Below are positions 3,388 to 32,139 of a stretch of DNA of 32,378 nt, in pieces. The stretch spans positions 1 to 32,378 of IMG/VR virus record IMGVR_UViG_3300047678_000583; one strand, written 5' to 3'. The first letter of the stretch is position 1. Every line of letters begins with the position of its first letter. Position numbers and translations under genes: made by a program. Below the pieces are notes generated by a model. That model worked only from the letters and a program-made list of their open reading frames with translations, made no database searches and was not told the origin of the DNA. The stretch comes from a virus.

Positions 3388-4605
3388 ATGGCGGAAAAGA
3401 TTAATATAGAGGAACTTAAAGTTATGATTGCCAACGAAATAAAAAACGAAGGCCTTAATGAAGTTTTAGATGGTGCCACTATAGACAAAATAGTTAAAGA
3501 CATTTTATACAAACAAAACATGGACAACGCTAGAAATGCAATTCCTGAAATTATACCTGAGCAAACAGAAGGGCCACCTATGGCAGCTCCTACTAATGCA
3601 ATGCCAACAGAAACAGGTGATGTAGAAGTGCCTACAAACAAATATTATACTCCATCTATAGATGCTGATAATTTTGGAACAGGAATCACAAATTCAACTA
3701 CGCAAATCGATCAAAGCACTTCAGGAAACATTCCTGCATATACACCTGAATTACCATCATTCTTAAACAAAATAGAACCTGCAAAGGTTATTGTATTTGA
3801 TATGAATGAACTAAGTCATGGTGGAGAAAATTTGACCAATGCGCCTCTTAGAACTTTTGAAAATCCTGATGTTAAAAAATCTATGAATGATTTCTGGGTT
3901 AATGAAGGAAAAAAGAAAGCTGAAGTTTATATGGCCAAATTTGAAAAAATTGGTGAGATTGAATTCAATTATGTAAATGGGACTTCTCAGTTTGTTGAGA
4001 AAAGATTTGACCCTGATTTTGAAGCTCAGGCGAAATATAAAGAGAATCCTTATGGAGCTCCATCTTTACCTCAAACAACAGGAACAGACAATTCTAATAT
4101 AATGGCTCAAATATCAACTGCGGTTGATCTTGAAGCTATTGTTACAAAGATTGTAAAAGACCTTATTCAAAAAGGAATGATGGGTGGTTCTACAGTTGAT
4201 TCTAGTCCAAAGAAATATGCTTTCGGCGCATTAGACCCAAACAACCCAAACGTACCAACAGATAATATGGGCCATTATATTGCCCCTAAAGAGAGTTATG
4301 GTTATGATCAATCTCAAGCTGTAAGGCCAATGGAAGAATCTAATAGATTATTTAAAGGCAATGGAGACATTACAGAATTAAATGCTGTTGCATTTGATTT
4401 GAATATGGCTAAGCTAGTTGATGATAATGGATCTTTTGTTAAATCAGAATTACCTGAAGCTCTTAAAGAGTATATAGGCGCTGGAAGAAGAGATTTTTTA
4501 AAGAATGAAAATCAAGAAGTGGAAGAATGGCACTTCGATGGCACAAGTTATTTCTTGCCAAAAAATAGAATATCAAAAAACAAAGGATATATCGTTAAAA
4601 AGTAA
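3388..4605 (+). CDS. Putative virion protein with prohead-targeting-like N-terminus
   Basis: A 405-residue protein of no recognised family. The N-terminus carries the shared helix (LKVMIANEIKNE, residues 10-21) ending in L23-N24-E25, a candidate cleavage site. A Pro/Ala/Thr-rich linker follows (about residues 53-90), then a mixed region, and a C-terminal domain ending in EEWHFDGTSYFLPKNRI. A virion-internal or head-associated role is inferred from the N-terminus and late-type promoter. Confidence 0.75.
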   Translation: MAEKINIEELKVMIANEIKNEGLNEVLDGATIDKIVKDILYKQNMDNARNAIPEIIPEQTEGPPMAAPTNAMPTETGDVEVPTNKYYTPSIDADNFGTGITNSTTQIDQSTSGNIPAYTPELPSFLNKIEPAKVIVFDMNELSHGGENLTNAPLRTFENPDVKKSMNDFWVNEGKKKAEVYMAKFEKIGEIEFNYVNGTSQFVEKRFDPDFEAQAKYKENPYGAPSLPQTTGTDNSNIMAQISTAVDLEAIVTKIVKDLIQKGMMGGSTVDSSPKKYAFGALDPNNPNVPTDNMGHYIAPKESYGYDQSQAVRPMEESNRLFKGNGDITELNAVAFDLNMAKLVDDNGSFVKSELPEALKEYIGAGRRDFLKNENQEVEEWHFDGTSYFLPKNRISKNKGYIVKK

Positions 4606-7191: not shown

Positions 7192-9495
7192 TTAGATTTT
7201 AACTGTTTCCATCTTATCTTCAACCTTAAACTTTAACTCTTTAGAGTCAATAGTTAAAGTCATTTCATTTTGACTTCTATCAGTAAATTCTACGAACCAA
7301 TTTTTGCCTACAATCGTTAAAAATTTAGCCTTAGAGATATCAGACATCAATTTATTCTTTTGACTTCTGAATGCTTTAGATTTATCGTAAAGCCAATTCT
7401 CAAGCATTTTATCCTTATCCTTAACATCTTTGATCAGCCCAAGGAATTGATTGAATTCTCTAATAGCATTTTCTGTTAATGCTTCTTTTGGAGATAAGTC
7501 TTTGCTTTCTGCAAGAATTTTTTTCTCAGCAGTTTCAATATCTTTCTTAATGATTGAAGAACTTAATTTTTCTATTTTAACTTCTAAAACGTTAACATCA
7601 ATTTCTTCTCCTGTTTTTTCAGTCTTAGACGGAGGAGTAAATCCATATTCTTTAAGACCAAGTTCTGCAAGCCACTTAGCCGCATCAACACCATAAGTCT
7701 CAGAAAATTTCGCACCAAGATTTTCGAAATGTTTTTTCTTATAAAAATTATAAACAGCATTTGCAGCTTTTAATTTTGTAAGTTCCCATTCGTTTGTAAA
7801 CAATTCTTTTGCAGAAAGAGTCTTAGCCATTTTTCTATTAATAACAGGGATCTTAGAGAAGTCAAGAACATAAATTTTATTAGCTTCAAAAGATTCTCCT
7901 TTTAACAATCCATTAGATTGAAGTTTGTCAAAAGTTTCTTTTGATAAAGAAATAGGAAGCGTATAATTATAAACAACACCATCTTTAATCAAAGTATAAT
8001 TTCTGAATTGATTAGTTTTAAATTCAGCTGGAAGATTAAATGAATTTGTAGGAAGTACAACGTGGCCCTTATAGTTTACTTGAACTGATAGATTAGCTCT
8101 TGATTCATTCCAAACAAGATCAGAAATTGGGAAAGGTTGTAAATCTCCATCATAAACAAATTTAAGTTGCACAGGCATGTTCTTTTGAATTTCTTCAAGA
8201 AGTTTGTGTGCCTCATCTAATTTATTTTGATCAAGGAGATCATTAACTCTGTTTCTGTCTTCTTCCGAAAGCTCTGCTAGTTTAGCAACAGTCTTACTTC
8301 CAATTCTTTTGTAGTTGAAAGCTTCGTGTTGTGGGTACCATAAGTTTTCATCTTTAGACATAAGGTCCTCAAGTAGGTCTAGAACGCAATAAGCGTCTTC
8401 TGCTGGTTCTAATTTAGGATTATACCCTTCAGTATATCTTTTTGATTTATCGTTAACAGCGTCTTTAAATTTTTGTTCTAACTCATTAATTTTTTGAGTT
8501 CCGAATGTGTTTGCTTTTTCAACGATTAAATAAGCATCTCCTAAATATTTTAAAACTTCAGAAACAGTATTGTAGTCGCCTTTTCTGCTTAATGCAAACA
8601 ACGAAGCATATAATCCTTTCATCATTGAATGGTCTTGGCCTTTACTAGCCATATCTTCTGCAAAATTAGGATCCATAGGAGTACCTACAGCTTTATCGGT
8701 AAAATAAAAAATATTTGTCTCACCATCAATACTTACTAAAATTTCATTGTTTTCGTTTGACTTATAAAGAACGATATCGTTATCAACAACATTAAAAACA
8801 AGGTCAAATTTTGCAGTATTATCAAGTTGGATATATTTTCTCTTTCCTTTATTATCTCCTGTAAATTGCTTTGTAAGATACGGCTCATAATCCTGGAAGT
8901 TTTGGCTGAACGTGTGAACACCACCAACTTCTTGAGCCATTTGGGCCATTAATTCTTTATTGCAATACCACCCATATTCAACCATTGTGGCACTATTTAA
9001 ATATTCCTTAAGATCAGATGTTGCTTTTAATATTTCTTTTGTAGAATATTGATTATCACATCCATCAGTAAGGAAAAACATAGAATGTAGCATTTCAGGG
9101 TTGTTACTACGAACTCTATTAACCACTTCTTTAACTTCAACCAAAGAGTCTTTAAAAGCTGTAAGTCCTTGAGGTGTTAAGTGTTTGTTAATAACATCTC
9201 TCACTTTTTCAAGAGAAATACCGCTACTAATATTATAATCTTCTAATAACACACCATATTGACCTCTTCCTGAGAACCAAATAATGGTAACAGAGTCTTT
9301 TGGTTTAAGCATGGTTGAAATTTTGTTATACAGATCCTTGCGGATGGTAGATAGTTCGCCTGACATTGATCCAGAACAATCAATTACGAAGATGTGTTGA
9401 GTGTGGAGCTCTACAGCTTTCTCTTTTTGCGCTTCTAGCGCAACGGTCTGATTTGCTAAAAATAGGCCGTCTTTAATTTTTAAATAGTTGATCAT
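7192..9495 (-). CDS. von Willebrand factor A domain protein
   Basis: A 767-residue protein. Its VWA domain covers about residues 30-220 and carries a complete metal site: D39-x-S41-x-S43 in DCSGSMSG, T112 in GLTAF, and D144 in LTDGCD. The remaining 550 residues are unrecognised, with coiled-coil-rich stretches toward the C-terminus. VWA domains with this site bind a divalent metal and protein partners. I chose ATG 9495 over an upstream ATG at 9567 because a good host-type promoter lies between them, so a transcript from it would not include the upstream start. No MoxR-type ATPase partner is visible nearby. Its target is unknown. Confidence 0.85.
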   Translation of the reverse strand: MINYLKIKDGLFLANQTVALEAQKEKAVELHTQHIFVIDCSGSMSGELSTIRKDLYNKISTMLKPKDSVTIIWFSGRGQYGVLLEDYNISSGISLEKVRDVINKHLTPQGLTAFKDSLVEVKEVVNRVRSNNPEMLHSMFFLTDGCDNQYSTKEILKATSDLKEYLNSATMVEYGWYCNKELMAQMAQEVGGVHTFSQNFQDYEPYLTKQFTGDNKGKRKYIQLDNTAKFDLVFNVVDNDIVLYKSNENNEILVSIDGETNIFYFTDKAVGTPMDPNFAEDMASKGQDHSMMKGLYASLFALSRKGDYNTVSEVLKYLGDAYLIVEKANTFGTQKINELEQKFKDAVNDKSKRYTEGYNPKLEPAEDAYCVLDLLEDLMSKDENLWYPQHEAFNYKRIGSKTVAKLAELSEEDRNRVNDLLDQNKLDEAHKLLEEIQKNMPVQLKFVYDGDLQPFPISDLVWNESRANLSVQVNYKGHVVLPTNSFNLPAEFKTNQFRNYTLIKDGVVYNYTLPISLSKETFDKLQSNGLLKGESFEANKIYVLDFSKIPVINRKMAKTLSAKELFTNEWELTKLKAANAVYNFYKKKHFENLGAKFSETYGVDAAKWLAELGLKEYGFTPPSKTEKTGEEIDVNVLEVKIEKLSSSIIKKDIETAEKKILAESKDLSPKEALTENAIREFNQFLGLIKDVKDKDKMLENWLYDKSKAFRSQKNKLMSDISKAKFLTIVGKNWFVEFTDRSQNEMTLTIDSKELKFKVEDKMETVKI

Positions 9496-9525
9496 GGTTA
9501 AATTATTTGATTTTAAATTAGAAAA

Positions 9526-9557
9526 CAAATATATTATTTCTTTACCAATTAACCAAA
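9526..9557 (-). promoter_or_regulatory. Bacteroidota-type promoter for the VWA gene
   Basis: On the minus strand, TTTG (9557-9554), a 20-base spacer and TATATTTG (9533-9526) match the Bacteroidota consensus TTTG-N19/20-TAnnTTTG exactly. The predicted transcript starts about 20 bases before ATG 9495. Confidence 0.6.
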
Positions 9558-9584
9558 TTTGAAACATAATTATCTTTTTTTGAA

Positions 9585-12201: not shown

Positions 12202-12870
12202 ATGATTAATAGCGGTAGATGTATCATCACAGAATTCTACGAATTCAAGGCAAGTCCTGATTTAATTAAAGAATTCGAAGAAAAAAAGAAGCCTTTAGTA
12301 ATGACAGGTATTCTTCAGAAAGCCGATACTTTAAACAGAAATGGTAGAGTATATCCTTATGAAATTCTTAAGAGAGAAGTTGATAAATACATGGAACTTG
12401 TTGAAAGTGGTACTGCTGGTGGTGAATTAGATCATCCAGATAGCGCTGTTGTTTCTTTAGCTAATGTATCACACAGGGTAACTGACATGTGGTGGCAAGG
12501 AAAAGATTTATACGGTAAAGTATTGATCGCCGAAGAAACAGATGCTGGTGGCACATTAAAAGGCCTTTTAAAAGCAGGTTTTATGCTTGGTATATCATCA
12601 AGAGGTGTTGGATCTGTTAAAAGTGTTAGTGGAAAAGATGTGGTTCAAGAAGATTTTGAATTAATCGCATTTGACTTTGTTTCATCACCATCAACTCCAG
12701 GGGCCTATTTATTCAAAGAAGGTAAGGAAATGGGCAGAAGAGGAATGATTCCTTTAGATGAAGATAGCGCAAAAATAATGAAGCTAGACAACACATTTAC
12801 TAAAGAACAAAATGAATTTTACGAAAAGCTAAATAAGTTAGCTGGAAATAATTTTTGGAAAAACGTTTAA
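12202..12870 (+). CDS. gp21: Prohead core protease (T4 gp21-like)
   Basis: A 222-residue protein with the gp21 family signature: NRNGRVYP (residues 45-52), the catalytic histidine in GGELDHPD (H78), and the catalytic serine in LGISSRGVG (S132 or S133). The length matches T4 gp21 (about 212). The enzyme matures the prohead by cutting core, internal and capsid proteins after (I/L)-x-E. In this phage the visible target motif appears to be mainly LNE, present at residue 60 of the capsid protein. It is followed by scaffold and capsid genes, as in T4, each with its own late-type motif. Confidence 0.93.
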   Translation: MINSGRCIITEFYEFKASPDLIKEFEEKKKPLVMTGILQKADTLNRNGRVYPYEILKREVDKYMELVESGTAGGELDHPDSAVVSLANVSHRVTDMWWQGKDLYGKVLIAEETDAGGTLKGLLKAGFMLGISSRGVGSVKSVSGKDVVQEDFELIAFDFVSSPSTPGAYLFKEGKEMGRRGMIPLDEDSAKIMKLDNTFTKEQNEFYEKLNKLAGNNFWKNV

Positions 12871-12939: not shown

Positions 12940-14361
12940 ATGAGCAACAACATTAACAGGTCATCTCTAGAACAAGCCAAAGCTGATTTCGAAGAAATCA
13001 GAACATTTGCTCAAAGCCAAGCTGAAAAAAAGCTTCAAGAAGAGGTTGATAAAAAACTTTTAAAAATCATCAACGAAAAATTAAACGAAGATGTAAATAT
13101 CTCTGTTGATGTTGAAGGTAATGTAGCCATTTCAAAAGATGGTGAAGAAGTTGCTTCTGTAAACGCTGCTGAAGATTCTAGCACTACATCATCTGATATT
13201 GAATCAGATATTGATGGTGCTCATGATGAAGATGCAGATGGAGAATTTACAGTTTCTGATGATGAAGAACCTATTAGTGTTTCTGATGACGAAGAGTTAG
13301 ATGAAATGATAAATAATGACGAATTAAATAATCAAACAAGTATGCAAAATAATGATATGAAAATGGAACAAGATGCTATTGCAGCTCCTGCTCCTGCAGC
13401 AACTACTGCCCCAGCACCTGATGCTTCTGCACCAGCTCCTGCTATTGATGCTTCTGCACCAGCTCCAGAAGGAACTCCTGAAGAAGGTGGTTCTGATGCT
13501 GCTATAGAAAGTCTTGTGTCTAAAATGGATACACTTATTAATCTAATGATGCAACAACAAGGCGCAACAGGAGATCAAACTGCTGGACAAGAATTTGAAG
13601 TTATTGATGACGAAAATGCTGGCGCAACTGCACCTGCACCTGAAGCTGGCGCACCTGCTCCTGCTCCTGCGGCTGAAGTACCTGTTCAAGAAGAAATGGA
13701 ATTTGAAATTACAGATTTTGAAGAACCTAATGATAGTGTTCTAGAAATCGTTGATGATATGGGTTCTGAAGATGTAGAAATCGTTGATGAATATGAAGAG
13801 ACTAATAATGGTCCAGCAATGGAAGAAACAAGAGGTCTTGGATTTACTTCAAAAAGAACTGGAGATAAAACATTAAAAATGGATGTTATGCAAAAAAATA
13901 AAGGTCATCACGCACCTGTAACATCTTTAGAAGAAAATAAAAAAGCTCAATATGAGTCTACAATAGACGAGCTCAAAAAGGAAAACAATGGTTTAAAATC
14001 AGAACGTAAAGAATTCGAAGAAGCTTTCGTTCAACTAAGAGAACAATTTGATGAAATGCAAACTTTCAACGGAAAGCTAGCACTGGTAAATAAGTTGTTG
14101 ATGAATGGTGGTTTATCATTTGATGAGAAACTTAAAGTATGCGAACAATTTGATAGTGCAGACACTATTGAAGAAGCTCAAAAAATTTACAAGAGTATCA
14201 TTAAAGAAAATAACATTAAAGTAAATAATGTTGATTCTAAGATTAAATCTACTACAACTCACACAGCTAAGCCAACTACAGAGGCAAAACCTTTGTACGA
14301 AAGTGATGAAGCTAGAAGAATGAAACAGCTTGCAGGATTATCAAAAAACTCTGAAGAATAA
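12940..14361 (+). CDS. gp22: Prohead scaffold protein (T4 gp22-like)
   Basis: A 473-residue acidic protein between the protease and the capsid gene, the place of T4 gene 22. It has an N-terminal helix, candidate cut sites I44-N45-E46 and L48-N49-E50, long Asp/Glu and Ala/Pro (APAPA) linkers, and a C-terminal coiled coil with a segment typical of gp22 (NGKLALVNKLLMNGGLSFDEKL, then TIEEAQKIY). The end reads EARRMKQLAGL. It is much longer than T4 gp22 (about 270) because of the low-complexity middle. It forms the core around which the capsid assembles and is then degraded. Confidence 0.88.
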   Translation: MSNNINRSSLEQAKADFEEIRTFAQSQAEKKLQEEVDKKLLKIINEKLNEDVNISVDVEGNVAISKDGEEVASVNAAEDSSTTSSDIESDIDGAHDEDADGEFTVSDDEEPISVSDDEELDEMINNDELNNQTSMQNNDMKMEQDAIAAPAPAATTAPAPDASAPAPAIDASAPAPEGTPEEGGSDAAIESLVSKMDTLINLMMQQQGATGDQTAGQEFEVIDDENAGATAPAPEAGAPAPAPAAEVPVQEEMEFEITDFEEPNDSVLEIVDDMGSEDVEIVDEYEETNNGPAMEETRGLGFTSKRTGDKTLKMDVMQKNKGHHAPVTSLEENKKAQYESTIDELKKENNGLKSERKEFEEAFVQLREQFDEMQTFNGKLALVNKLLMNGGLSFDEKLKVCEQFDSADTIEEAQKIYKSIIKENNIKVNNVDSKIKSTTTHTAKPTTEAKPLYESDEARRMKQLAGLSKNSEE

Positions 14362-14444: not shown

Positions 14445-16095
14445 ATGAGTGAACTTTTAAATAGTGGTAAGGTAGGTCTAACAGTGTTTAGAAACCTTGC
14501 AGAACAAAGACAAGCTATCGTAAGAAATTGGGACGACTCAGGTCTTCTTGAAGGTCTTAAAGGTATGAAGAAAGCAAACACTGCTCAGTTGATGGAAAAT
14601 CAAGCTCAAGCAATGTTAAACGAGGTAACTCTTGACTCTTCAGCTGGTAGATTTGATACAGTTGCATTTCCAATTGTAAGAAGAGTATTCTCTAGATTGT
14701 TAGCTAACGAGATTGTATCAGTACAGCCTCTTGCTTTACCTTCTGGTTTATTATTCTACATGGATGCTAGAGTATCTTTCAACGGTAACGATACAACATT
14801 TAACAACCCTGTAATTCCTAACTTCCCTGATAACTCAGGTCCTGGTTCTTACAGCAAGGTTGCTCCTGCTAACACAGCAAACGGACAAGCTGGTCCAATT
14901 TTCGCAGATACTACTGCATACGAAAGATTCTATAACAATAGAGGTTTTGACCTTTCTTTCGGTACAGGTGAAACTGCTTTAGGTACAGCGCTTCCAATTG
15001 TTTCTAACACATTCACAAACGGTATATTAGCTGCAAACTTCACTTTAGGTGCAGGTTTCAACTTCTCAATCTTCAGTTACTTTAAGATTCTCTGCTGGTA
15101 CTGCAATTTATTATTCAGGTGCTAACGGAAATACTTTATTAGTTGCTGCTGGTGGTAGAGTACCTTTCTTCTCTCAAATCCAAAACTGGACTAGCGATCT
15201 TTATGCTAACGGAACTGCGAAAGTTGTTCTTGATCTTAGACCTGCTGGTGTTTACGGTGCAGATTTCAACCCTGCAATGGTTAACAACGGTGCTGGTTTA
15301 TTCGGAGCTGCTTATACAGTTACTGTTACTCCTGCTTACGAAGTATTCAGTAACATGGAAGCTAAGTCAGAAATGGGTGAAATCACTATTAGATTCTCTT
15401 CTGTTACAGTTAACACTGAAACTAGAAAGTTAAGAGCACACTGGACTCCAGAATTAGCTCAAGACTTAGAAGCATACCACTCAATTGATGCTGAGGCTGA
15501 ATTAACAGCTTTATTATCTGAGCACGTTGCTGCTGAAATCGATAGAGAAATCATCATCGACCTTATTAACCAAGCTCCTTTCAGAGCTAGATGGGATTAC
15601 AAAGGTCTTTCTAACAACGCTAACTTCTTCGGAACTCAGAAGGATTGGAACCAAACATTAATCACTAGAGTTAACGAGCTTTCTGCTCAAATCCATAAGT
15701 CTACTTTAAGAGGTGGTGCTAACTGGATCGTATGTTCTGCAGAAGCTGGTGCTATATTTGATGACTTAGAGTATTTCCACGTTGATGGTTCTGCTCAACC
15801 AGAGTCAGAAAAATACAACTTAGGTGTTGAGAAAATTGGTAACTTAGGTTCTAGATATGTAGTTTACAAAGATCCTTATCTTCCTGCTCCATTAGTATTA
15901 CTTGGACACAAAGGTAACACGTTCTTAGAAGCTGGTTATATCTACGCTCCTTACATTCCATTACAATTAACTCAGACTATCTACGATCCAAATGATTTCA
16001 CTCCTAGAAAGGGTATCATGACTAGATATGCTAAGAAAATGGTTAACAACAGATTCTACGCTGTTATCTACATCGATAACATTAATACTTACTAA
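14445..16095 (+). CDS. gp23: Major capsid protein (T4 gp23-like), split by a +1 frame change
   Basis: Two overlapping frames together make one gp23-like protein of about 549 residues (T4 gp23 is 521). The first frame runs 14445-15125 (226 residues); the second is open from 15049 to 16095. The N-terminal part has the gp23 start with M57-L58-N59-E60, a candidate maturation cut near T4's residue 65, then GRFDTVAFPIVRRVFSRLLA. The C-terminal part has the typical KMVNNRFYAVIYIDN end. The join needs one base to be skipped between 15049 and 15122; dropping a T from GGTTTCA at 15054-15060 gives a smooth LGAG-STSQSS join. It may be a real mutation, programmed frameshift or sequencing error. Confidence 0.88.
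15049..15125 (+). other. Frame-change window in the capsid gene
   Basis: The second frame has a TAG at 15046-15048 and the first stops with TAA at 15123-15125, so the shift must occur between them. After 15060 the first frame reads an unlikely Phe/Tyr/Cys-rich tail, which places the shift near the TTT run at 15056-15058. Confidence 0.75.
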
Positions 16096-16270: not shown

Positions 16271-16637
16271 GAAATTTAAAATAAAAGCCCACCGCACATA
16301 TTAATTAAAACAAATCACCATTATACCATTTCTTTTCAGTCTTGTCGGGTTCATTGATGTACTCTGTTAGCTTAGTTGTTAATTCTGCTTTAGTGCTGAT
16401 AGCAAATGTGTGGCAACCAACTCTAACAATGAAACCCCTGTTCACTTCTTCAATGTTGATTTGTCTAATTTTGTTTCCTCCTCTGTCTGGAGTTGGCGTA
16501 GCTGCTCCATTTTCGCATCTGTCCATTGGTTGTTCGGGTCTGCAATCTGATAATATTGCACCTCTTAATTCTTGATTTTCCATCTTATTTTTATGTGGGT
16601 TTTACGAAGCCCGCCCAAGGCTTTTATTTTAAATTTC
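16271..16637. repeat. Perfect 19-base inverted repeat flanking the small cassette gene
   Basis: GAAATTTAAAATAAAAGCC at 16271-16289 recurs inverted at 16619-16637. The copies bracket the gene at 16305-16583. Each is joined to a GC-rich hairpin (CGGTAGAGC/GCCCACCG and GGGTTTTACGAAGCCC). Function is unknown. Confidence 0.85.
16305..16583 (-). CDS. Small cassette-borne hypothetical protein
   Basis: A 92-residue protein. The N-terminal third is Pro/Gly/Asn-rich and likely disordered; the rest (VNRGFIVRVGCHTFAIST, then LTTKLTEYINEPDKTEKKW) looks like a compact alpha/beta domain of a kind I associate with small Bacteroidota phage proteins, without a named function. It occupies a 512-base integron-like cassette and is flanked by a 19-base inverted repeat. 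No promoter of the late type precedes it, so it probably depends on transcription from upstream. Confidence 0.7.
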   Translation of the reverse strand: MENQELRGAILSDCRPEQPMDRCENGAATPTPDRGGNKIRQINIEEVNRGFIVRVGCHTFAISTKAELTTKLTEYINEPDKTEKKWYNGDLF

Positions 16638-16680
16638 TTTTCGTGTTCCAAATTAAGTTTCTGCTAAATAATCCCTACTT

Positions 16681-16780
16681 CATATAACAGCGGTTTTGTG
16701 CTATTTGCCCCATCAACATTTGTGGTAAATTGAAACTTTGTGCAAGGGGCAAACAGACACAAAGCCGCAAAGCGTTAGGC
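16681..16780 (-). repeat. attC-like recombination site, long type (site B)
   Basis: Read on the minus strand it starts GCCTAACGC (R'' consensus RYYYAAC, perfect) and ends GTTATAT (R' consensus GTTRRRY, one mismatch). Between them GCGGCTTTGTGTCTGTTTGC and GCAAATAGCACAAAACCGC are long imperfect arms with unpaired bases, and the tip contains a second small repeat. It starts seven bases after the methyltransferase stop codon, the usual place of an attC in a cassette. Confidence 0.75.
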
Positions 16781-17698
16781 GTAATGCTAAGACAGTCCTC
16801 CGAAAATATGAGCGATTGTATCAACATTCCAACCATTTCCTATCATTTTTCTAATTTGGTTCTCACTTGCCACGCCATCAAAGTAAGTTTCAGGCACGGT
16901 TTGTAATCTGCAATATTCCTTTATTGTGTAATAGCGGAAAGGCAAATTGTTTTTGAATGCGTCAGGGTGTCGTCCTATTGGCATTGTAGTTAAAACATTG
17001 TCTTTTGCTACTGTGGTTAAACAGTTGCTTTTATCTCTGTTTGTGGCTCTCACTTCAAGGCATTGAGTAATTGGTATTTCTTTATTGTAATCCTCTTGTT
17101 TGCCTTTGTCGTTCAATCTTCTGCCCAAAATAGTAGCCTTATTCAATCTTCGTCCTCTTATTGCACTTGGTCCAATCATTTCAGTATCTTCTAAAATATC
17201 AATCAGCTTTATGCCTTTATCGTTTGGTTGTTCAATCGGAAAGTTTGCCCAGTATAATCGTTCTCTATTTTGGGCAGAAACCAAAGCACTGTTTATCTTC
17301 ACAGGCTCAACTCCTAAATGTTCGGTTATCACTTGCTCAAATTCCTTTTTCATAACCACATTTTCCAAAAGCCAATATTTAGGTTTGCATTCTTTAATTA
17401 GCCTTACAAATTCAAAAAACAATTTGCTTCTTGGGTCGTCAAAGTTCAGTTGCTTTCCGCTAAAACTAAATCCTTGGCAAGGGCTTCCACCTATCAATAA
17501 ATCAATTTGCGGTAAATCCGCTCCTTTAATTTCGGTAACACTTCCAAGTTGTATAGTGTCGGGGTAATTGTGTTGTGTTACTTTGATGGCGTGTTTATCA
17601 ATCTCCGAAGCATAATATTTGCCATAGGAAATGCCTGTTCTGTTGAGTGCTATTTGTCCGCAACTCATACCATCGAATAACGAAAGCACTACGCCTAA
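16688..17698 (-). mobile_element. Integron-type gene cassette carrying a DNA methyltransferase
   Basis: The unit is bounded by crossover points G|TTAGGC (17699/17698) and G|TTATAT (16688/16687), 1011 bases. Its first 13 bases, TTAGGCGTAGTGC, are complementary at 12 positions to the bases around its own attC left core (GCATTACGCCTAA). In integrons the first bases of a cassette are complementary to the left core of its own attC, so this match argues strongly for a real cassette. The gene fills almost the whole unit. Confidence 0.75.
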
Positions 17699-17740
17699 CA
17701 TCGGCTTTATGCAAGTGGGGGTTTCTACTATATTCATCAT
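16787..17740 (-). CDS. DNA (cytosine-5) methyltransferase on a cassette
   Basis: A 317-residue protein with C5-methyltransferase motifs in order: I (LSLFDGMSCGQIAL, residues 19-32), IV with catalytic Cys88 (GGSPCQGFS), VI (ENV), VIII (QNRERLYW) and X (MIGNGWNVD). It transfers methyl from S-adenosylmethionine to cytosine in DNA; the target sequence is unknown. No partner endonuclease is visible, so protection of phage DNA is a reasonable guess. The first 13 residues are encoded by the attC-like site upstream. The family normally begins two or three residues before VLSLFDG, so Met14 (17701) or GTG at 17689 may be the original start. The gene is richer in G and C than its phage neighbours. Confidence 0.92.
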   Translation of the reverse strand: MMNIVETPTCIKPMLGVVLSLFDGMSCGQIALNRTGISYGKYYASEIDKHAIKVTQHNYPDTIQLGSVTEIKGADLPQIDLLIGGSPCQGFSFSGKQLNFDDPRSKLFFEFVRLIKECKPKYWLLENVVMKKEFEQVITEHLGVEPVKINSALVSAQNRERLYWANFPIEQPNDKGIKLIDILEDTEMIGPSAIRGRRLNKATILGRRLNDKGKQEDYNKEIPITQCLEVRATNRDKSNCLTTVAKDNVLTTMPIGRHPDAFKNNLPFRYYTIKEYCRLQTVPETYFDGVASENQIRKMIGNGWNVDTIAHIFGGLS

Positions 17741-17822
17741 TTGTATTTCAATTAAACATTAGTGGTGGGTTGAACATTTGAGCCTTGAAGCCCCACCTGC
17801 ACAAAGCCGAGAAACGTTAACT
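17693..17822 (-). repeat. attC-like recombination site overlapping the methyltransferase start (site C)
   Basis: On the minus strand it runs from AGTTAAC to GTTAGGC (the latter a perfect R' core). The arms CGGCTTTGTGCAGGTGGGG and CCCCACTTGCATAAAGCCG pair with few mismatches, and share the motif CGGCTTTGTG with site B. The apex contains a further GTGGG/CCCAC pairing with TTGAACATTTG between. The 3' end lies inside the coding sequence of the methyltransferase. Confidence 0.7.
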
Positions 17823-17862
17823 TCAAGTTTGCGAACAAAGAACATAAACAACGGCTAAATTC

Positions 17863-17946
17863 ACCTAACAGTTGCCATTACGCTGTGTTTTTCGGGGTTA
17901 CTGGTCTATGAAGATACTATTAACCCTTTTTCCCGCCACTGTTCAT
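17863..17946 (-). repeat. Possible outer attC-like or boundary site (site D)
   Basis: On the minus strand the ends are ATGAACAGTGGC and GCAACTGTTAGGT; GTTAGGT matches the R' consensus. Inner arms GGGTTA and TAACCC pair. The left core is a poor match, so this may be a decayed attC, an array boundary, or chance. The unit between it and site C would be 170 bases with no gene. Confidence 0.35.
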
Positions 17947-17957
17947 GTTTTAATCTG

Positions 17958-18215
17958 TTATAAAACAATTTGTAGTCCTAGTCTTTTACCACAATCTCTG
18001 CATAATTCAGCTTGTGTACTACCTCGCCATTTTTCACCACAACTGCAAACCGATTTTATAACATTTGATTGTGTGAAATTTTTAACATTTAATTCTTGCA
18101 AGTGTCTTAATACTATTCTCGGTGATGTATTCCACCATAAAAACACCTTGCCAAATATTTTAATTTTTGTATAATGTCTGTTAAGTAACTGTATTTCTTT
18201 TTCTGTAAATTTCAT
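17958..18215 (-). CDS. Small zinc-ribbon-like hypothetical protein
   Basis: An 85-residue protein. The N-terminal half is basic and helical (FTEKEIQLLNRHYTKIK), and the C-terminal half has CSCGEKWRG and CRDCGKRLG, a CxC/CxxC arrangement that could bind zinc. The stop lies 11 bases before the candidate boundary site of the cassette array. It is the last gene of the compact minus-strand accessory run, and its AT-rich base use matches that run rather than the cassettes. Function unknown. Confidence 0.65.
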   Translation of the reverse strand: MKFTEKEIQLLNRHYTKIKIFGKVFLWWNTSPRIVLRHLQELNVKNFTQSNVIKSVCSCGEKWRGSTQAELCRDCGKRLGLQIVL

Positions 18216-18234
18216 ATTTGTCTATTTAAGTTGA

Positions 18235-18417
18235 TTAAGAATTATGAATGGCACATCCAATTAGAAATGATGCTATTATAGCTATCCAATAAAATACGCT
18301 TCGGATTCTGAATTCATGATGTTTAAATTTTTCATTTTCAATTTTTGTGGCAACTGCAAATAGCCATAATGAAACTGAAAGAATAAGCCAAATTGCTATT
18401 AATAATAATGTATTCAT
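18235..18417 (-). CDS. Small membrane protein, two predicted helices
   Basis: A 60-residue protein with two hydrophobic segments (LLLIAIWLILSVSLWLFAVA and YWIAIIASFLIGCAI) separated by a charged loop. It would sit in the inner membrane. No family is recognised. It lies within the minus-strand accessory run with short gaps on each side. Confidence 0.65.
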   Translation of the reverse strand: MNTLLLIAIWLILSVSLWLFAVATKIENEKFKHHEFRIRSVFYWIAIIASFLIGCAIHNS

Positions 18418-18421
18418 AACT

Positions 18422-18613
18422 TTATCTTACTTTTTCTAAATCAGGTTCAACAAGTCCAAGGCCTCTTATTGGGCCTTTTGTATAGCTTATATATGGCTTT
18501 CTAGCGTCTTCTAAAACTCCTAATCTCCAATTATAATCAGCAATCATTCCTATTATGTGATTTTTTAATTTCCACAATTCAATATCTTCTTTTTTTTGTT
18601 GTTCAGGTGTCAT
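18422..18613 (-). CDS. Small hypothetical protein
   Basis: A 63-residue protein with a charged N-terminal helix (PEQQKKEDIELWKLKNHI) and a Gly/Pro-rich C-terminus. No family is recognised. Four bases separate its stop from the start of the membrane protein gene, consistent with cotranscription. Confidence 0.6.
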   Translation of the reverse strand: MTPEQQKKEDIELWKLKNHIIGMIADYNWRLGVLEDARKPYISYTKGPIRGLGLVEPDLEKVR

Positions 18614-18628
18614 TTTTTATTGATTAAA

Positions 18629-18829
18629 TTATCCATGAGTACCATCAGTCAAAGAAATACCATGTTTTATTCCATGGAAAAAATCATCTTTAGTATTATT
18701 ATCATCAAAATATTTAGCAATAATAATACCTATTTCATTTCCAATATCAGACAAATCACCGCTTTCATAAGTGATGTTTAATAATTTATCTGCTATTTCT
18801 TTATTTACTTCTTTAAAATTTTCCATCAT
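18629..18829 (-). CDS. Small hypothetical protein
   Basis: A 66-residue acidic protein, starting MMENFKEVNKEIADKLL. An upstream TTG at 18838 is open but ATG 18829 (or 18826) is more likely. It contains DIGNEIGIIIAKYFDDNN. No family is recognised. Confidence 0.6.
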   Translation of the reverse strand: MMENFKEVNKEIADKLLNITYESGDLSDIGNEIGIIIAKYFDDNNTKDDFFHGIKHGISLTDGTHG

Positions 18830-18839
18830 AAATTGCAAT

Positions 18840-19103
18840 TTAAAACCTTCGGCCCATGAAATTTACCTTATGTCTAGGCTTACACAGTTGCTTTATTTCT
18901 TTAATTGTTTCAGTTTTATCATTATAAGAGTTCCAGGAAGCATACATTCTCTCTTTAGCAACTCTTTTTACACGCTCTTTCTTGGTTTCGGGTTTTATTT
19001 TTGCTTGTTGATATCCTATACCATTAGCATAAGTTTCAGATCCTGTAATCCTAATTTGCGTAACTGCAAGCGGTCCTTGTGTTATATAAAATCCTGGCGC
19101 CAT
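18840..19103 (-). CDS. Small basic hypothetical protein
   Basis: An 87-residue protein with a beta-like N-terminus (GFYITQGPLAVTQIRITG) and a strongly basic helical middle (KKERVKRVAKERM). It starts one base after the stop of the preceding gene, so the two are cotranscribed and probably coupled. Function unknown. Confidence 0.65.
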   Translation of the reverse strand: MAPGFYITQGPLAVTQIRITGSETYANGIGYQQAKIKPETKKERVKRVAKERMYASWNSYNDKTETIKEIKQLCKPRHKVNFMGRRF

Positions 19104-19104
19104 A

Positions 19105-19455
19105 TTATTGTTTTGGTAACATTTGTTTAGCTTTTTCTACTGCTATCTGACACACAGAAACTTGTCTAGATAAAATTTTTATTCTTCTTTCATTTCTTTT
19201 TATGAAATTATTTAAAGCTTCTTCTTTCGTTGGATATGCATAACGCTTTCTTGCAGTTTTAGACACCCATCTTTCACCGCTATGAAGACTATTAATATCA
19301 CCATATCCAATCCAATATCCTTTAGGAGTTTCTTTAAATAAGTTTAGAGTTATTAAATTTATTTTAGGATCAGGAAATGTTGGCGACATAAACTCTCCAT
19401 TAATATCCGTTGAGGCATATTCAATGGATTCATATCTAAAAAATTCGTTATTCAT
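19105..19455 (-). CDS. Hypothetical protein with WVSKTARKRYAYPT motif
   Basis: A 116-residue protein. The segment GYWIGYGDI, then RWVSKTARKRYAYPTKEEALNNFIKRNERRI followed by a coiled-coil tail, is of a kind I have seen in small conserved phage proteins of unknown function. The start overlaps the previous stop (ATGA), indicating translational coupling. Confidence 0.7.
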   Translation of the reverse strand: MNNEFFRYESIEYASTDINGEFMSPTFPDPKINLITLNLFKETPKGYWIGYGDINSLHSGERWVSKTARKRYAYPTKEEALNNFIKRNERRIKILSRQVSVCQIAVEKAKQMLPKQ

Positions 19456-19694
19456 ATTGTTTTTTTATTACAATCTCCATTACATAAATCGTTTATATAA
19501 TATTTTCTATACATGATCTCGGCCACATCATCCTGGCTCACTCTGAAGCGTTCAGGGCCACAACATTCAGTAAAATACCCAGCATTTGGATATACATGCT
19601 TAACTATAGTTCCACTTTTTAATTTAATGTCGCATTCATTTTTCTCATATTGAGTAAAAGGAAGCCACTCTTCATATGTTAGATTTCTGCTCAT
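19452..19694 (-). CDS. Small hypothetical protein
   Basis: An 80-residue protein with a small beta-like core (CDIKLKSGTIVKHVYPNAGYF) and several cysteines (ECCG; CNGDC) that might bind a metal. No family is recognised. It is coupled to its neighbours by an ATGA overlap on one side and a one-base gap on the other. Confidence 0.65.
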   Translation of the reverse strand: MSRNLTYEEWLPFTQYEKNECDIKLKSGTIVKHVYPNAGYFTECCGPERFRVSQDDVAEIMYRKYYINDLCNGDCNKKTI

Positions 19695-19695
19695 A

Positions 19696-19902
19696 TTATT
19701 TTATTTCTGTACCATTATCAAAAATTGTAAAAGATTCATTATTTGATAAAATTACTTTGTAATAAACATACCCACCATCACATGAAATATGAAGGTCTTT
19801 TATCCATTCGTCAGAGCCGCCCATATCTTCTAATTTGCTCTTAATTTTAGCTCTAGCATCATTATGCTGTATAAAGTCTAATGTAATTCTGTTGGCCCAC
19901 AT
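19696..19902 (-). CDS. Small hypothetical protein
   Basis: A 68-residue protein with an N-terminal helix (ARAKIKSKLEDMGG) and a C-terminal beta part (GGYVYYKVILSNNESFTIFDNG). No family is recognised. One-base gaps to both neighbours mark it as part of the operon. Confidence 0.65.
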   Translation of the reverse strand: MWANRITLDFIQHNDARAKIKSKLEDMGGSDEWIKDLHISCDGGYVYYKVILSNNESFTIFDNGTEIK

Positions 19903-19903
19903 A

Positions 19904-20263
19904 TTATTTCTTTTTCTTTATTACTAAATGTTTAGGAATTGGACTGCCACAACATCCACATTTTGTATTATATTTCCATTCTTCTTCATTATCATATCCT
20001 TCACCACACGCACCACAACATCCTCTACTTTTACTTCTTTTATCGTCTTCTATATATTCATCAATCTCTTTATCAAAATCTTCTTTTAAATATATTATAC
20101 GATCATCTTTACAATTGCCATTAACTATGATTGAAAAAGATTTTTTCATTGATATAGTGTCAGTCTTAATGATGTTTCCGACCATTATAATCTCCTCTAT
20201 CATGCCTTTGTTTATTAGACTATTGACTAATAATAGTAAATTTTTATTTCTTTCTACTTCCAT
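19904..20263 (-). CDS. Small protein with C-terminal zinc ribbon
   Basis: A 119-residue protein. The last 45 residues contain CCGACGEGYDNEEEW and KCGCCGSPIPKH, two paired-Cys knuckles as in zinc ribbons. The N-terminal part is mixed helix and strand. It overlaps the upstream gene by 20 bases. A nucleic-acid or protein-binding role is possible but not shown. Confidence 0.68.
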   Translation of the reverse strand: MEVERNKNLLLLVNSLINKGMIEEIIMVGNIIKTDTISMKKSFSIIVNGNCKDDRIIYLKEDFDKEIDEYIEDDKRSKSRGCCGACGEGYDNEEEWKYNTKCGCCGSPIPKHLVIKKKK

Positions 20264-20558
20264 TCTTATTGTCGTGGTATTTTTTTAAAATATTTTCTTT
20301 ATTCTTTAAATAAAACTTTTGATAGGATTCTTTTTTTCTTTGTTTTCTTTCTTCATCATTCTGAGGAGGAACCCAATCAGGTTTTTTCCTTTTTTTAAAT
20401 TTAGACTTTTTAGCTATCTCTTTAATCTTTTTTTTATATTTTGGATCATTTTTATTCTCATGATATTTTTTAAGAATTTTTTCTCTATCTTTTAAATATT
20501 TTTTTCGTTGAGATTCCTTTTTTCTTTGTTCTCTCTCTTCATCATTTTTAGGCCTCAC
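20244..20558 (-). CDS. Lys-rich repeat protein, apparently truncated at its 5' end
   Basis: A 104-residue very basic protein from a GTG start. It contains two copies of a unit of about 55 residues beginning RKKPDWV-P-NDEER-QRKKES and continuing YLK-(D/N)-(R/K)-E-(K/N)-ILKKYH-(E/D)-NKN. The same frame stays open for a further 59 codons upstream with a third, more diverged unit but no usual start codon. Restoring one GA in the run at 20724-20731 would join it to an ATG at 20751. The true gene is probably longer and broken by a small indel. Function unknown. Confidence 0.55.
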   Translation of the reverse strand: MRPKNDEEREQRKKESQRKKYLKDREKILKKYHENKNDPKYKKKIKEIAKKSKFKKRKKPDWVPPQNDEERKQRKKESYQKFYLKNKENILKKYHDNKNGSRKK

Positions 20559-21245: not shown

Positions 21246-21457
21246 TTATTTATTTCTTCTAATTTTTTTTCCCACAAATGTGTCCAATTTGCTAGTTTTT
21301 TATGAAGTTCAAAAAACTCGTCAATGGCGATTATATCTTTAAACTCAGGATCATAATGTGAACAATAAGCACTGCTAAAAGTAATATCCCCAAGTAAAGA
21401 TGTAGCGTTTTTAAGAGCTTTTAATTGATCTTCTCTACTTCTTACTATCATTTTCAA
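21242..21457 (-). CDS. Small hypothetical protein
   Basis: A 71-residue helical protein (SREDQLKALKNATSLLGD; FFELHKKLANWTHLWEKKLEE). ATG 21457 or 21451 could be the start; both overlap the end of the HD gene. No family is recognised. Confidence 0.62.
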   Translation of the reverse strand: MKMIVRSREDQLKALKNATSLLGDITFSSAYCSHYDPEFKDIIAIDEFFELHKKLANWTHLWEKKLEEINK

Positions 21458-21971
21458 TAAGATTTGTTAAGTAATTAAATCTATTGATAAAATTTTTCTT
21501 AGCCTCCTCAGGGGTCCAAAATTTAAAGAAAGAATCTGGTTCTTCAAAGAAGGATTTATATTCAAACTTCAATACATCATCATCAACTTTTTTTACATTT
21601 GCAGATAAAGGAAAGTTGAGTTTAAATTTTTCGAAAATAAGTTTTAATAGTTTATCTTCAATTACAATGTAGTTTGGCATATTTTTCTTGATAGGTCTAG
21701 GTAAATCAGCTAAATAAGCTTCTGATGCATCATGCATTAAATATTCTAACTGTTCTTTTGGAGTTCCATCTGCATATGAACAAAATACAGAATGCTGAGC
21801 AACTGAGTAAAATTGTGGAGAATGACCGCCATACCTACAAATATTTGATAAACCATGGACAATATCTTCAAACAAAATGTCCTCAATTTTAGGATTGAAT
21901 ACATCAAATATAACCCCAGAATGTACTAATATCGCATTTGGGTTTGCTTTGGAAACGTCTTCTAATTTCAT
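21435..21971 (-). CDS. HD-domain phosphohydrolase
   Basis: A 178-residue protein with the HD metal site: VAQHSV (H60), then LMHDASEAYLADLP (H80-D81), as in the YfbR-like nucleotidase family and related phage proteins. These enzymes remove phosphate from nucleotides using a divalent metal; in phages this would tune nucleotide pools. Exact substrate is unknown. I chose ATG 21971 rather than an ATG at 22109 because the extra sequence is not protein-like and a host-type promoter lies at 21992-22023. It heads the minus-strand accessory run down to 17958. Confidence 0.85.
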   Translation of the reverse strand: MKLEDVSKANPNAILVHSGVIFDVFNPKIEDILFEDIVHGLSNICRYGGHSPQFYSVAQHSVFCSYADGTPKEQLEYLMHDASEAYLADLPRPIKKNMPNYIVIEDKLLKLIFEKFKLNFPLSANVKKVDDDVLKFEYKSFFEEPDSFFKFWTPEEAKKNFINRFNYLTNLIENDSKK

Positions 21972-21991
21972 AATATTTTTTTTAATGTCAG

Positions 21992-22023
21992 TAAATGTAA
22001 GATTTTTATTGCTATTTGACAAA
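21992..22023 (-). promoter_or_regulatory. Bacteroidota-type promoter for the accessory operon
   Basis: On the minus strand TTTG (22023-22020), a 20-base spacer and TACATTTA (21999-21992) match TTTG-N19/20-TAnnTTTG with one mismatch. The ATG at 21971 follows about 20 bases later. Confidence 0.45.
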
Positions 22024-22026
22024 TAG
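22012..22026. repeat. Perfect palindrome CTATTTGACAAATAG over the promoter
   Basis: Seven-base arms with a one-base centre cover the TTTG element of the accessory-operon promoter. A repressor operator is one possible reading; the TTTG alone does not require the symmetry. Confidence 0.5.
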
Positions 22027-22051
22027 AATCTTAAAAGAAGGTTTTTTAAAG

Positions 22052-22060
22052 TATTTATAG
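22052..22060 (+). promoter_or_regulatory. Candidate late promoter motif TATTTATAG
   Basis: GTATTTATAGATAAGG lies 29 bases before the ATG at 22090 and points away from the HD operon promoter. Confidence 0.45.
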
Positions 22061-22089
22061 ATAAGGTATTATGTACTTTTATTAACAAA

Positions 22090-22734
22090 ATGAATCTAAG
22101 AAAAATCATAAGAGAAAGTATAGAAAGTCTTGTAAATCAAGATGTTAACGCATTAGATATACCTGAATTAAATAATTTTAAGTTTGTTGATAAAAAAAAG
22201 GATAGCAAGGATAATGATGTTTGGAAATATTCTTTGAAAGAAGAAAACTATACGATCAATTTTTACATAGCAAAAAATAAAAGCAATAAATGGTTTTATA
22301 AAGTTTTTGTTTATTGGAAAGCATTATCAAAAAGTTTAACAAGTGGTAGAGGTAAGGATTTCGAAATAAAATTTGGACCATTTGAAAGTTTTGAAGAATT
22401 AAAAAAGAGTATTAAAGAGGCGGTTGATCATAATGTATTATTCGCATTTCAAAACTATCATGACAACAATAAAATTCAATTAGATGATGAGGTTTTTAGA
22501 GTGATAGAAAAATTAAAAACACATAAAGAAGATATAGAAAATAGCACAGGAAGTTATTTTAAAGACCTTAAAAAATTATTACCAATTTTCTCAAAATCAA
22601 AAGAGGAAATTAAGAAATTTTTAGATGATGAATACCCTGACGAAGAAGATAAACAGTTCTTACTTTTAACTCTTCAGAAGATGGATAAAGTCAAGTTGCA
22701 CAATCAGATAAACTCAATCAAATCAATATTTTAA
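22090..22734 (+). CDS. Putative virion protein with prohead-targeting-like helix
   Basis: A 214-residue protein of no recognised family. It opens with MNLRKIIRESIESL, close to the shared helix pattern (I-x-x-E-x-x-x-x-L), and I24-P25-E26 fits (I/L)-x-E. A beta-rich middle (YTINFYIAKNK; WFYKVFVYWKAL) is followed by Lys/Glu helices. It is the first plus-strand gene after the accessory run and precedes the neck genes. A head-internal location is inference. Confidence 0.7.
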   Translation: MNLRKIIRESIESLVNQDVNALDIPELNNFKFVDKKKDSKDNDVWKYSLKEENYTINFYIAKNKSNKWFYKVFVYWKALSKSLTSGRGKDFEIKFGPFESFEELKKSIKEAVDHNVLFAFQNYHDNNKIQLDDEVFRVIEKLKTHKEDIENSTGSYFKDLKKLLPIFSKSKEEIKKFLDDEYPDEEDKQFLLLTLQKMDKVKLHNQINSIKSIF

Positions 22735-29090: not shown

Positions 29091-29555
29091 ATGTCAGGTA
29101 GTTATTTTCAGCCAATAAAGAGAGAGTTTTTAAATTTAAGTGGCGGCACGGTCACTGGTGATACTTTATTTGCTCAAAATTTATCAGCAACAACTTTTTA
29201 TTCTGGAAGTACCAATCTTGAACAAATAATAGCTAATATAGCAACTAATTCAACTGGAATAACAGGGAATTATTTGGCAATATCAGGAGGAACAGGTGGT
29301 CCATATGATTTCATAGGAAACACAACTGCAAGTACTTTATTCGTTTCAACTTTGGTAGAACCAAAAATTGATAATGTTGTTGATGTTGGAACTCCTTTTA
29401 AGAGATTTAGAGATTTAAATACAGTTAACGGTATTGCTGTTAATTTCACAGCAACAACAAGAGTGTCTACTCAAGAACTAGTTTTAGGCAATACAACAGT
29501 AACTGAAAATAATATAATTTTATCTGGATACACGCTAGAAGGAGGAGGTTGGTAA
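29091..29555 (+). CDS. Fibre/baseplate-type structural protein, short
   Basis: A 154-residue Thr/Ser/Asn/Gly-rich protein. It has the module LSATTFYSGSTNLEQII, shared with the large protein at 29983, and KIDNVVDVGTPFKRFRDLNTVNG, a motif seen in phage tail-fibre proteins and repeated in the next gene. The C-terminus is LEGGGW. Fibre or baseplate location is inferred from composition and repeats. Confidence 0.75.
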   Translation: MSGSYFQPIKREFLNLSGGTVTGDTLFAQNLSATTFYSGSTNLEQIIANIATNSTGITGNYLAISGGTGGPYDFIGNTTASTLFVSTLVEPKIDNVVDVGTPFKRFRDLNTVNGIAVNFTATTRVSTQELVLGNTTVTENNIILSGYTLEGGGW

Positions 29556-29556
29556 T

Positions 29557-29943
29557 ATGAATTTAATATTCCCTGATCCAAGAAATAACCCTGAGTATCA
29601 GTATTACCAGGTAATGAGCGGCTACAATTACAATTTCAGTTCAATTACAGCCACTATAGATTCACTTACAGGATCAACACCTACGGCATATTTTAGTTCG
29701 GCTACGGCCAATACTTTCTATGTAGGAGCAGAATTAGATCCTATTGCCGATAATGTGGTAGACATGGGAACTCCTATTAAGAGATTTAGGAGTTTAAATA
29801 TTGTAAATGGTGTGTTTGTTGGATTTACAGCGAGCACTGTAACAGCTCAAACAATCTACTCAGATCAGATATTTTTATCAGGTGTTTCTATAGACGAAAA
29901 ATTCTTAGCAATAAACGATACTTTAAGTGCTGGAACGTGGTAA
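29557..29943 (+). CDS. Fibre/baseplate-type structural protein, short
   Basis: A 128-residue protein starting two bases after the previous stop. PIADNVVDMGTPIKRFRSLNIVNG is homologous to the segment in the preceding protein, so the pair arose by duplication or shares a domain. It ends LSAGTW. A tail-fibre or baseplate role is likely. Confidence 0.75.
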   Translation: MNLIFPDPRNNPEYQYYQVMSGYNYNFSSITATIDSLTGSTPTAYFSSATANTFYVGAELDPIADNVVDMGTPIKRFRSLNIVNGVFVGFTASTVTAQTIYSDQIFLSGVSIDEKFLAINDTLSAGTW

Positions 29944-29959
29944 TATAAAAAAATAAATA

Positions 29960-29973
29960 TATTTATAATAAAA
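29960..29973 (+). promoter_or_regulatory. Candidate late promoter motif TATTTATAATAAAA
   Basis: The motif lies 9 bases before the ATG at 29983. Confidence 0.5.
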
Positions 29974-29982
29974 TAAAATGAT

Positions 29983-32139
29983 ATGGCACAAAGAAATGTA
30001 ACAATAACCCTTAGAGATAAACAGACCACAGGAGGTTCAATCCCAGGAACTGCTTTAATGGGAGAACCATTTATAAATTTATATGATGGTGTTCTTAAAT
30101 TTTCTGCTGTTACAGGCGGTGGTTTCGAACCTTCAACACAGACAGGTGTTTTTGAAGTTGGTTCTGCACTTTATAATCAAAAGATTACAAACCGTTTAAA
30201 CATTAATGATAATTTTATTATCAGTGGTGATACAGGTAAAATTTCTACATATCAAGGAACAAATGTTTTATCTAATAAATTTTTATCAGGTACATCTACA
30301 GGATTTGTATTAGCTGATATCACAGATATCGCAGCTTCAACAGACTCTTATACAACAGGTGCTACATGGGTTCCAAATACATTAACATTAAAATTAAATC
30401 AAGGTAAACCAGATGTAACTGTATCGATAGGAACTTTTAATACTTTAACTGCAACAGGCGCAACAAATTTAAATACATTATTTTCAACAACAGTTTCTGG
30501 CGGAACTTTATTCTCAGGATCAACAAATGTTGGTAGTTTATTTGTAAATACAATTTCAAACGGAACAAACACAACAGTTGGTGGGTCTGCAAATCATAGA
30601 ACAGTAAATCTTGTTGATTCTCCTTCGGTTAATAATATTACTTATTCGGGAACATCAACGGGTGGCAATTCAATTGCAACAAACGTATCTGCAACAACTT
30701 TATATTCTGGTTCAACAAATGTTGATTCATTATTTGTTAAAGGTGTATCAGCAGGTTCAAACACAACAATTGGTGGTTCATCTCAATACCCAATCGTAAA
30801 TATTGTTGCTTCTCCTTCGTTTAATAACATTACTTATTCAGGAACATCAACAGGTGGAAATTCAGTTGCAACAAACGTATCTGCAACAACAGGATTTTAT
30901 TCTGCAGGTACTTCTCTTGAAACAATTATTTATAACATAGCAAATTCAACAGAAAATATTACTTCTATTGGAAATGGTTTAAATACTTACACAGCAGGAA
31001 CAGCTAATGCTCCAACTGTAAATATATCAGCTGCAACTTTAGCTTCATTATCTGTTTCAGGCGCAACAACTTTAAACACTTTATTTGCAACAACAGTTTC
31101 TGGTGGTACTTTATTCTCAGGATCAACAAATATTGGTGGTTTGTTTGTAAACACAATATCAAACGGAACAAATACAACGGTTGGCGGATCTGCAAATCAC
31201 AGAACAGTAAATCTTGTTGATTCTCCTTCTTTAAATAATATTACTTATTCAGGAATATCAACAGGCGGAAATTCAGTTGCAACAAACGTATCTGCAACAA
31301 CTTTCTTTTCAGGAAGCACAAATCTTGGAACAGTTATAAATTCTGCAATAACAGGAATAACTTCAAACTTAACATCAACTAGAGTTCAACCAGGAACAAA
31401 TATTACAACAGGAGGCACTGCAAATAATCCAACAATAAATCTTGTTGATTCTCCTTCGGTAAATGGATTAACAGTTTCTGGAACAGGAAACTTTACAGGG
31501 TTATTACAATCAGGTGGAACAACTTTAGGTAATTTATTTGTAAATGATGTAACGGCAGGAACAAACATTTCTATTGGCGGATCAGCAAATCACCCAACGG
31601 TTAATGTAATTTCTTCTCCTGTATTCGCAGGATTAGTTTCTGCAACAGGTTTCACAGATTCAAGTTTAACTGCAGGTAGAGTTATCTATGCTGGAGTAGG
31701 CGGAAGATTGACTGATGAGGCTGGATTTACATATGATGCAAATGCAGACACATTAAACACAAAACATATTACAGTTGGTGCTCCTGGACAATCAGGTACA
31801 TCTGCAACAATTTATGGTGATGTATTGATAATTGGACAAGCAATAAGTGGATTTACTTCAGAATTATATATTGAAGATAATAATATTTTCTTAAACTACA
31901 ATCCAACAGCATCAACAGTTTCAACTTCTCTTGGAGCAGGTTGGTCAATTCAAGATGGTGATGGTGTTGCTGCTGGAGACGTATTCTTTGATATTAGAGG
32001 TACAGCTACAGGTGTTGATAATAGATCATTTGCCACAAACTTAAATGATTTAAGAATTAGAGAAACAGGTACAGTATCAGCCCCTAACGGTGTAAGAGTG
32101 TTGGCCGAGCTGGATTTGCTAGATGGCGGATCATATTGA
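29983..32139 (+). CDS. Large repeat-rich tail fibre protein
   Basis: A 718-residue protein. Residues about 150-560 consist of repeated beta units built from modules such as VSATT-(F/Y)-SGSTN, GTNTTVGGSANHRTVNLVDSP and NITYSGTSTGGNS. The N-terminal 100 residues (NVTITLRDKQTTGGSIPGTALMGEPFINLYDG) look like an attachment domain, and the C-terminal 150 (SELYIEDNNIFLNYNP) a tip-proximal domain. Fibres bind host surface receptors. The frame ends DGGSY-stop; a neighbouring frame continues DGGTY-stop, so the true end may be 32155 if one T is extra. Confidence 0.82.
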   Translation: MAQRNVTITLRDKQTTGGSIPGTALMGEPFINLYDGVLKFSAVTGGGFEPSTQTGVFEVGSALYNQKITNRLNINDNFIISGDTGKISTYQGTNVLSNKFLSGTSTGFVLADITDIAASTDSYTTGATWVPNTLTLKLNQGKPDVTVSIGTFNTLTATGATNLNTLFSTTVSGGTLFSGSTNVGSLFVNTISNGTNTTVGGSANHRTVNLVDSPSVNNITYSGTSTGGNSIATNVSATTLYSGSTNVDSLFVKGVSAGSNTTIGGSSQYPIVNIVASPSFNNITYSGTSTGGNSVATNVSATTGFYSAGTSLETIIYNIANSTENITSIGNGLNTYTAGTANAPTVNISAATLASLSVSGATTLNTLFATTVSGGTLFSGSTNIGGLFVNTISNGTNTTVGGSANHRTVNLVDSPSLNNITYSGISTGGNSVATNVSATTFFSGSTNLGTVINSAITGITSNLTSTRVQPGTNITTGGTANNPTINLVDSPSVNGLTVSGTGNFTGLLQSGGTTLGNLFVNDVTAGTNISIGGSANHPTVNVISSPVFAGLVSATGFTDSSLTAGRVIYAGVGGRLTDEAGFTYDANADTLNTKHITVGAPGQSGTSATIYGDVLIIGQAISGFTSELYIEDNNIFLNYNPTASTVSTSLGAGWSIQDGDGVAAGDVFFDIRGTATGVDNRSFATNLNDLRIRETGTVSAPNGVRVLAELDLLDGGSY
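30457..31306 (+). repeat. Long imperfect direct repeats inside the fibre gene
   Basis: A segment of about 247 bases starting at 30457 recurs at 31060 (offset 603, in frame) with scattered, mostly third-base differences. Shorter pieces recur near 30677, 30860 and 31281. Recombination between copies could change fibre length. Confidence 0.85.

Follow-up and report, generated by a model that had tools for sequence, protein, structure and literature searches.

Apparent loss of one 8-base tandem unit divides the major capsid gene of an uncultured T4-type phage fragment between two reading frames

The DNA analysed here, called the window, is a complete IMG/VR virus record (32,378 bases) and represents a 32-kb fragment from an uncultured T4-type phage. 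Its major capsid gene lies on the plus strand and occupies two open reading frames (ORFs). ORF A (14,445-15,125; 226 amino acids) contains the 5' portion of this Gp23-type gene and ORF B (15,049-16,095; 348 amino acids when counted from a GTG), in the +1 frame, contains the rest, the two ORFs overlapping by 77 bases (15,049-15,125). Residues 69-155 of ORF A match positions 3-81 of the PF07068 (Gp23) profile (E 1.7e-10) and residues 88-337 of ORF B match positions 111-354 of the same profile (E 8.6e-60), both above the curated cut-off, and both halves match phrog_138 (major head protein). Relatives of the capsid protein in the PDB are T4-type capsid proteins. A sequence-only reading of this DNA had proposed that the major capsid gene is split by a frame change with a 77-base overlap; the ORF coordinates and the Gp23 matches in both halves bear this out, and we confirm that, in the sequence as given, one capsid gene is divided between two frames.

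The surroundings of the gene are those of a phage head module. An intact prohead protease gene, recognized by its profile match (Peptidase_S77), lies at 12,202-12,870 on the plus strand, followed on the same strand by a probable scaffold gene (12,940-14,361), which has no family match and is designated by its position, and whose indels relative to the close relative L102 preserve the frame. Protease and probable scaffold beside the capsid gene form a layout as in T4-type head modules. The window thus resembles the Gp23 family of T4-type phages (PF07068, phrog_138) in the consecutive family matches of its two halves and in the adjoining protease, but each relative has a single open frame of about 515-640 codons, whereas in the window a net loss of 8 bases leaves two frames. 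The AlphaFold model of one intact relative (L001) was poor, with a mean pLDDT of 60 and a pTM of 0.40.

In order to locate the break, the window was aligned with its relatives. Their homology follows frame A up to the junction, at about 15,068, and frame B from about 15,067. Beyond about 15,068, ORF A is an out-of-frame tail that ends at the stop codon at 15,123-15,125.

We then examined the continuity of the gene in these relatives. A search with ORF B gave at least 80 loci with at most 83% identity over the full length, one of them a partial locus at 92%; the matches listed were mostly relatives at 50-83% identity and did not include the closest contigs. Both halves are covered in 79 of these listed loci, each of which carries the gene as a single open frame free of stops. 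Using the N-terminal half as query led to much closer contigs, namely L102, L103, L104, L105 and L120. L102 (IMG/VR 3300032046_005453) shares 98% amino acid identity with the N part and 99.7% with the C part, and 96.2% DNA identity over 3.8 kb; the four others are 80-83% identical to the window in DNA, and their genes are intact. In this second set, made up of the N-terminal search and of genome-contig relatives, the gene is continuous in 34 of the 34 spanning loci. Both sets combined, the split arrangement occurs in none of the 113 spanning loci among the matches listed (79 plus 34), a number that counts loci and not independent genomes, since some contigs are common to both sets. Exact IMG/VR searches with the junction sequence and with an upstream stretch gave no match. 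Related capsid contigs (L144-L151) also occur in MAGs labelled Deltaproteobacteria, Bacteroidota, Euryarchaeota and others; these are probably phage contigs binned by chance, and they indicate nothing firm about the host.

That the capsid protein now consists of two separately made pieces which assemble together, the second begun at GTG 15,049 or nearby, appears to us barely credible. The GTG does lie just past the upstream stop of frame B, and the region around the break, which varies in length among relatives, cannot be aligned to T4 gp23. However, none of the spanning relatives listed has such an arrangement, an overlap of this kind is expected by chance from a frame-breaking loss, and the start site is not conserved. 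The GTG is an artefact of the ORF list and is unsupported as a start.

The sequence-only reading had also called for a comparison with close relatives, and this comparison identified what is missing. All five intact close relatives (L102, L103, L104, L105 and L120) are 8 bases longer than the window at the junction, L103, L104, L105 and L120 being equal to L102 in length there, and the more distant ones among the close relatives keep the same spacing, from a conserved F to a QSS motif. The alignment with L102 puts the gap at 15,061, its placement being ambiguous within about 15,055-15,070 on the plus strand. At this site the window has a single GTTTCAAC unit (15,055-15,062), where L102 has two adjacent 8-mers of the same kind, identical at 6 of 8 bases. 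L105 and L120 spell the second 8-mer as the window does, and combining them with L102 suggests that the immediate ancestor carried a perfect 8-base tandem pair.

The earlier suggestion that skipping one T in GGTTTCA (15,054-15,060) repairs the gene, an extra T having split it, is hardly tenable in view of this deficit. The two frames do join when one base of this motif is skipped, but a protein joined in this way remains three residues short and is without the conserved F present in all close relatives; a further 9-base deletion would be required. Compared with one gap of 8 bases, the one-T insertion gave the poorer alignment in 8 of the 8 relatives tested and was rejected, and L102 displays the 8-base gap directly. 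Of the proposal that the split is an error in a T-run or a real lesion, the kind of event (lesion or error) therefore stands, and the one-base T-run cause gives way to the removal of 8 bases from a tandem repeat.

Tandem repeats commonly lose a unit by spontaneous mutation, and the missing length is here that of exactly one unit of the pair, which is imperfect in L102 and would be perfect in the deduced ancestor only. We infer that slippage was the mechanism: one unit of the tandem 8-base repeat would have been lost at about 15,055-15,070, putting the downstream gene out of frame, so that ribosomes in frame A would halt at 15,123-15,125. Compared with other slippage deletions of short tandem-repeat units, this case shows nothing distinctive. 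The slippage may have taken place while the DNA was replicated or while the library was amplified; alternatively, the assembly may have picked up a minor variant or may itself be at fault. For assemblers, 16 bases make a short repeat, so that pure assembly collapse is not an obvious route, and the 8-base loss was probably present in some molecule or read.

Another explanation could be that ribosomes shift into the +1 frame within the overlap, by a programmed or corrective event, and so make a full-length capsid protein as well as a short one. The frames overlap, a +1 slip anywhere in 15,049-15,122 would join them, and frame B is well preserved. A precedent exists: Listeria phage PSA uses a programmed +1 shift in its capsid gene, at a proline codon that immediately precedes a stimulatory pseudoknot (PMC5009743). 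The window is like PSA in that the gene encodes the capsid and the second frame is +1; it differs in having neither such a codon nor such a structure, and its relatives need no shift. Indeed, inspection of the frame A junction revealed neither the stop nor the proline codon of known +1 sites, and RNA folding of 15,040-15,160, with a program that does not cover pseudoknots, gave no unusual structure (z = 0.05). A split conserved among relatives, as expected for programmed frameshifting, is seen at 0 of the 113 loci among the matches listed, and is absent even from a relative at 96% DNA identity. In addition, the product of a slip would still be about three residues short of all relatives, and the 8-base loss fully accounts for the split. 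Titles and abstracts of the literature contained no report of a gp23 frameshift that we could find. The programmed shift giving a truncated and a full product, put forward in the sequence-only reading, is thus not supported, given the intact relatives, the ordinary RNA fold and the lack of a stop or proline codon, and we regard frameshifting of either type as very improbable. Equally improbable is a real 8-base loss in a thriving population whose capsid is made by efficient corrective +1 frameshifting; if true, it would make an essential structural gene dependent on corrective frameshifting.

To estimate the age of the lesion, codon differences after the break were analysed. Between the window and L102, 22 are synonymous and 1 is nonsynonymous; on the window's own branch, polarised with four outgroups, the numbers are 9 and 1. 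Random changes would be synonymous in a fraction of 0.25 under neutrality, and the binomial chance of at least 9 synonymous changes in 10 is about 3 in 100,000. Strong purifying selection thus acts on frame B. The nearly all-synonymous changes indicate that frame B was translated and selected until very recently, and hence that the lesion is very recent or confined to this record. The break is also isolated within the record, as judged from the sequence: among the genes shared with relatives, no other frame-broken gene was found, either against the 23.6-kb L102 contig or against wider relatives, and coding indels elsewhere hold the frame, singly or in compensating groups. One stretch inside ORF 3,388-4,605 (4,186-4,290) is locally hypervariable relative to the L102 contig; it contains several small indels, which in sum leave the frame unchanged.

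We therefore consider it very likely that the split arose from an unprogrammed and very recent 8-base loss. The allele probably exists in few molecules or in the record only, because the phage needs its capsid protein and the downstream frame is well kept. An essential capsid gene cannot be absent from a spreading lytic phage. Within this unprogrammed explanation, we lean towards a library or assembly artefact or a minor variant. That the loss is genuine and widespread, the genome being that of a defective phage (either a capsid-null variant maintained only by co-infection or a decaying remnant), is a possible but distinctly less likely alternative. Such a loss would be an ordinary mutation, and the remainder of the record is clean and hence not generally error-ridden. 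However, the other genes show no decay and frame B bears the mark of strong purifying selection, which together leave no time for decay, and a lytic phage that cannot make its capsid would not be expected to dominate its population. The favoured recent loss is a change ordinary in kind, of little significance unless the allele is common in reads. It calls for caution, since a split essential gene in an uncultured virus contig resembled programmed frameshifting until close relatives revealed a plain 8-base loss; annotators would otherwise record a pair of capsid genes and give one of them a spurious GTG start.

Several other regions of the window were noted during the comparison. Between the capsid gene and the next plus-strand gene (22,090) lies a minus-strand cassette (16,305-20,558) with a C-5 cytosine DNA methylase (16,787-17,740) and many small ORFs, none of which matched in the relatives compared. 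In L104 the homologue of the 22,090 gene comes almost directly after the capsid gene, and in L001 a different, shorter insert is found there; from these layouts, the interval seems to be a head-module hot spot where genes are gained. At the cassette end, a deoxyribonucleoside 5'-monophosphate phosphatase-like gene (phrog_318; 21,435-22,109) is in the same place in L001 and L002 and was not found in the four next-closest contigs. Past the tail sheath gene, the region 29,091-32,139 is mosaic: only the first ~45 residues of ORF 29,091-29,555 match long proteins of the relatives, and other stretches of these proteins match ORF 29,983-32,139 in another frame, with internal repeats, possibly representing a rearranged fibre-type gene. 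Finally, a 791-amino-acid minus-strand protein (7,192-9,567; phrog_2426, unknown function) that contains a von Willebrand type A domain is conserved in place in five of the five relatives with sequence there.
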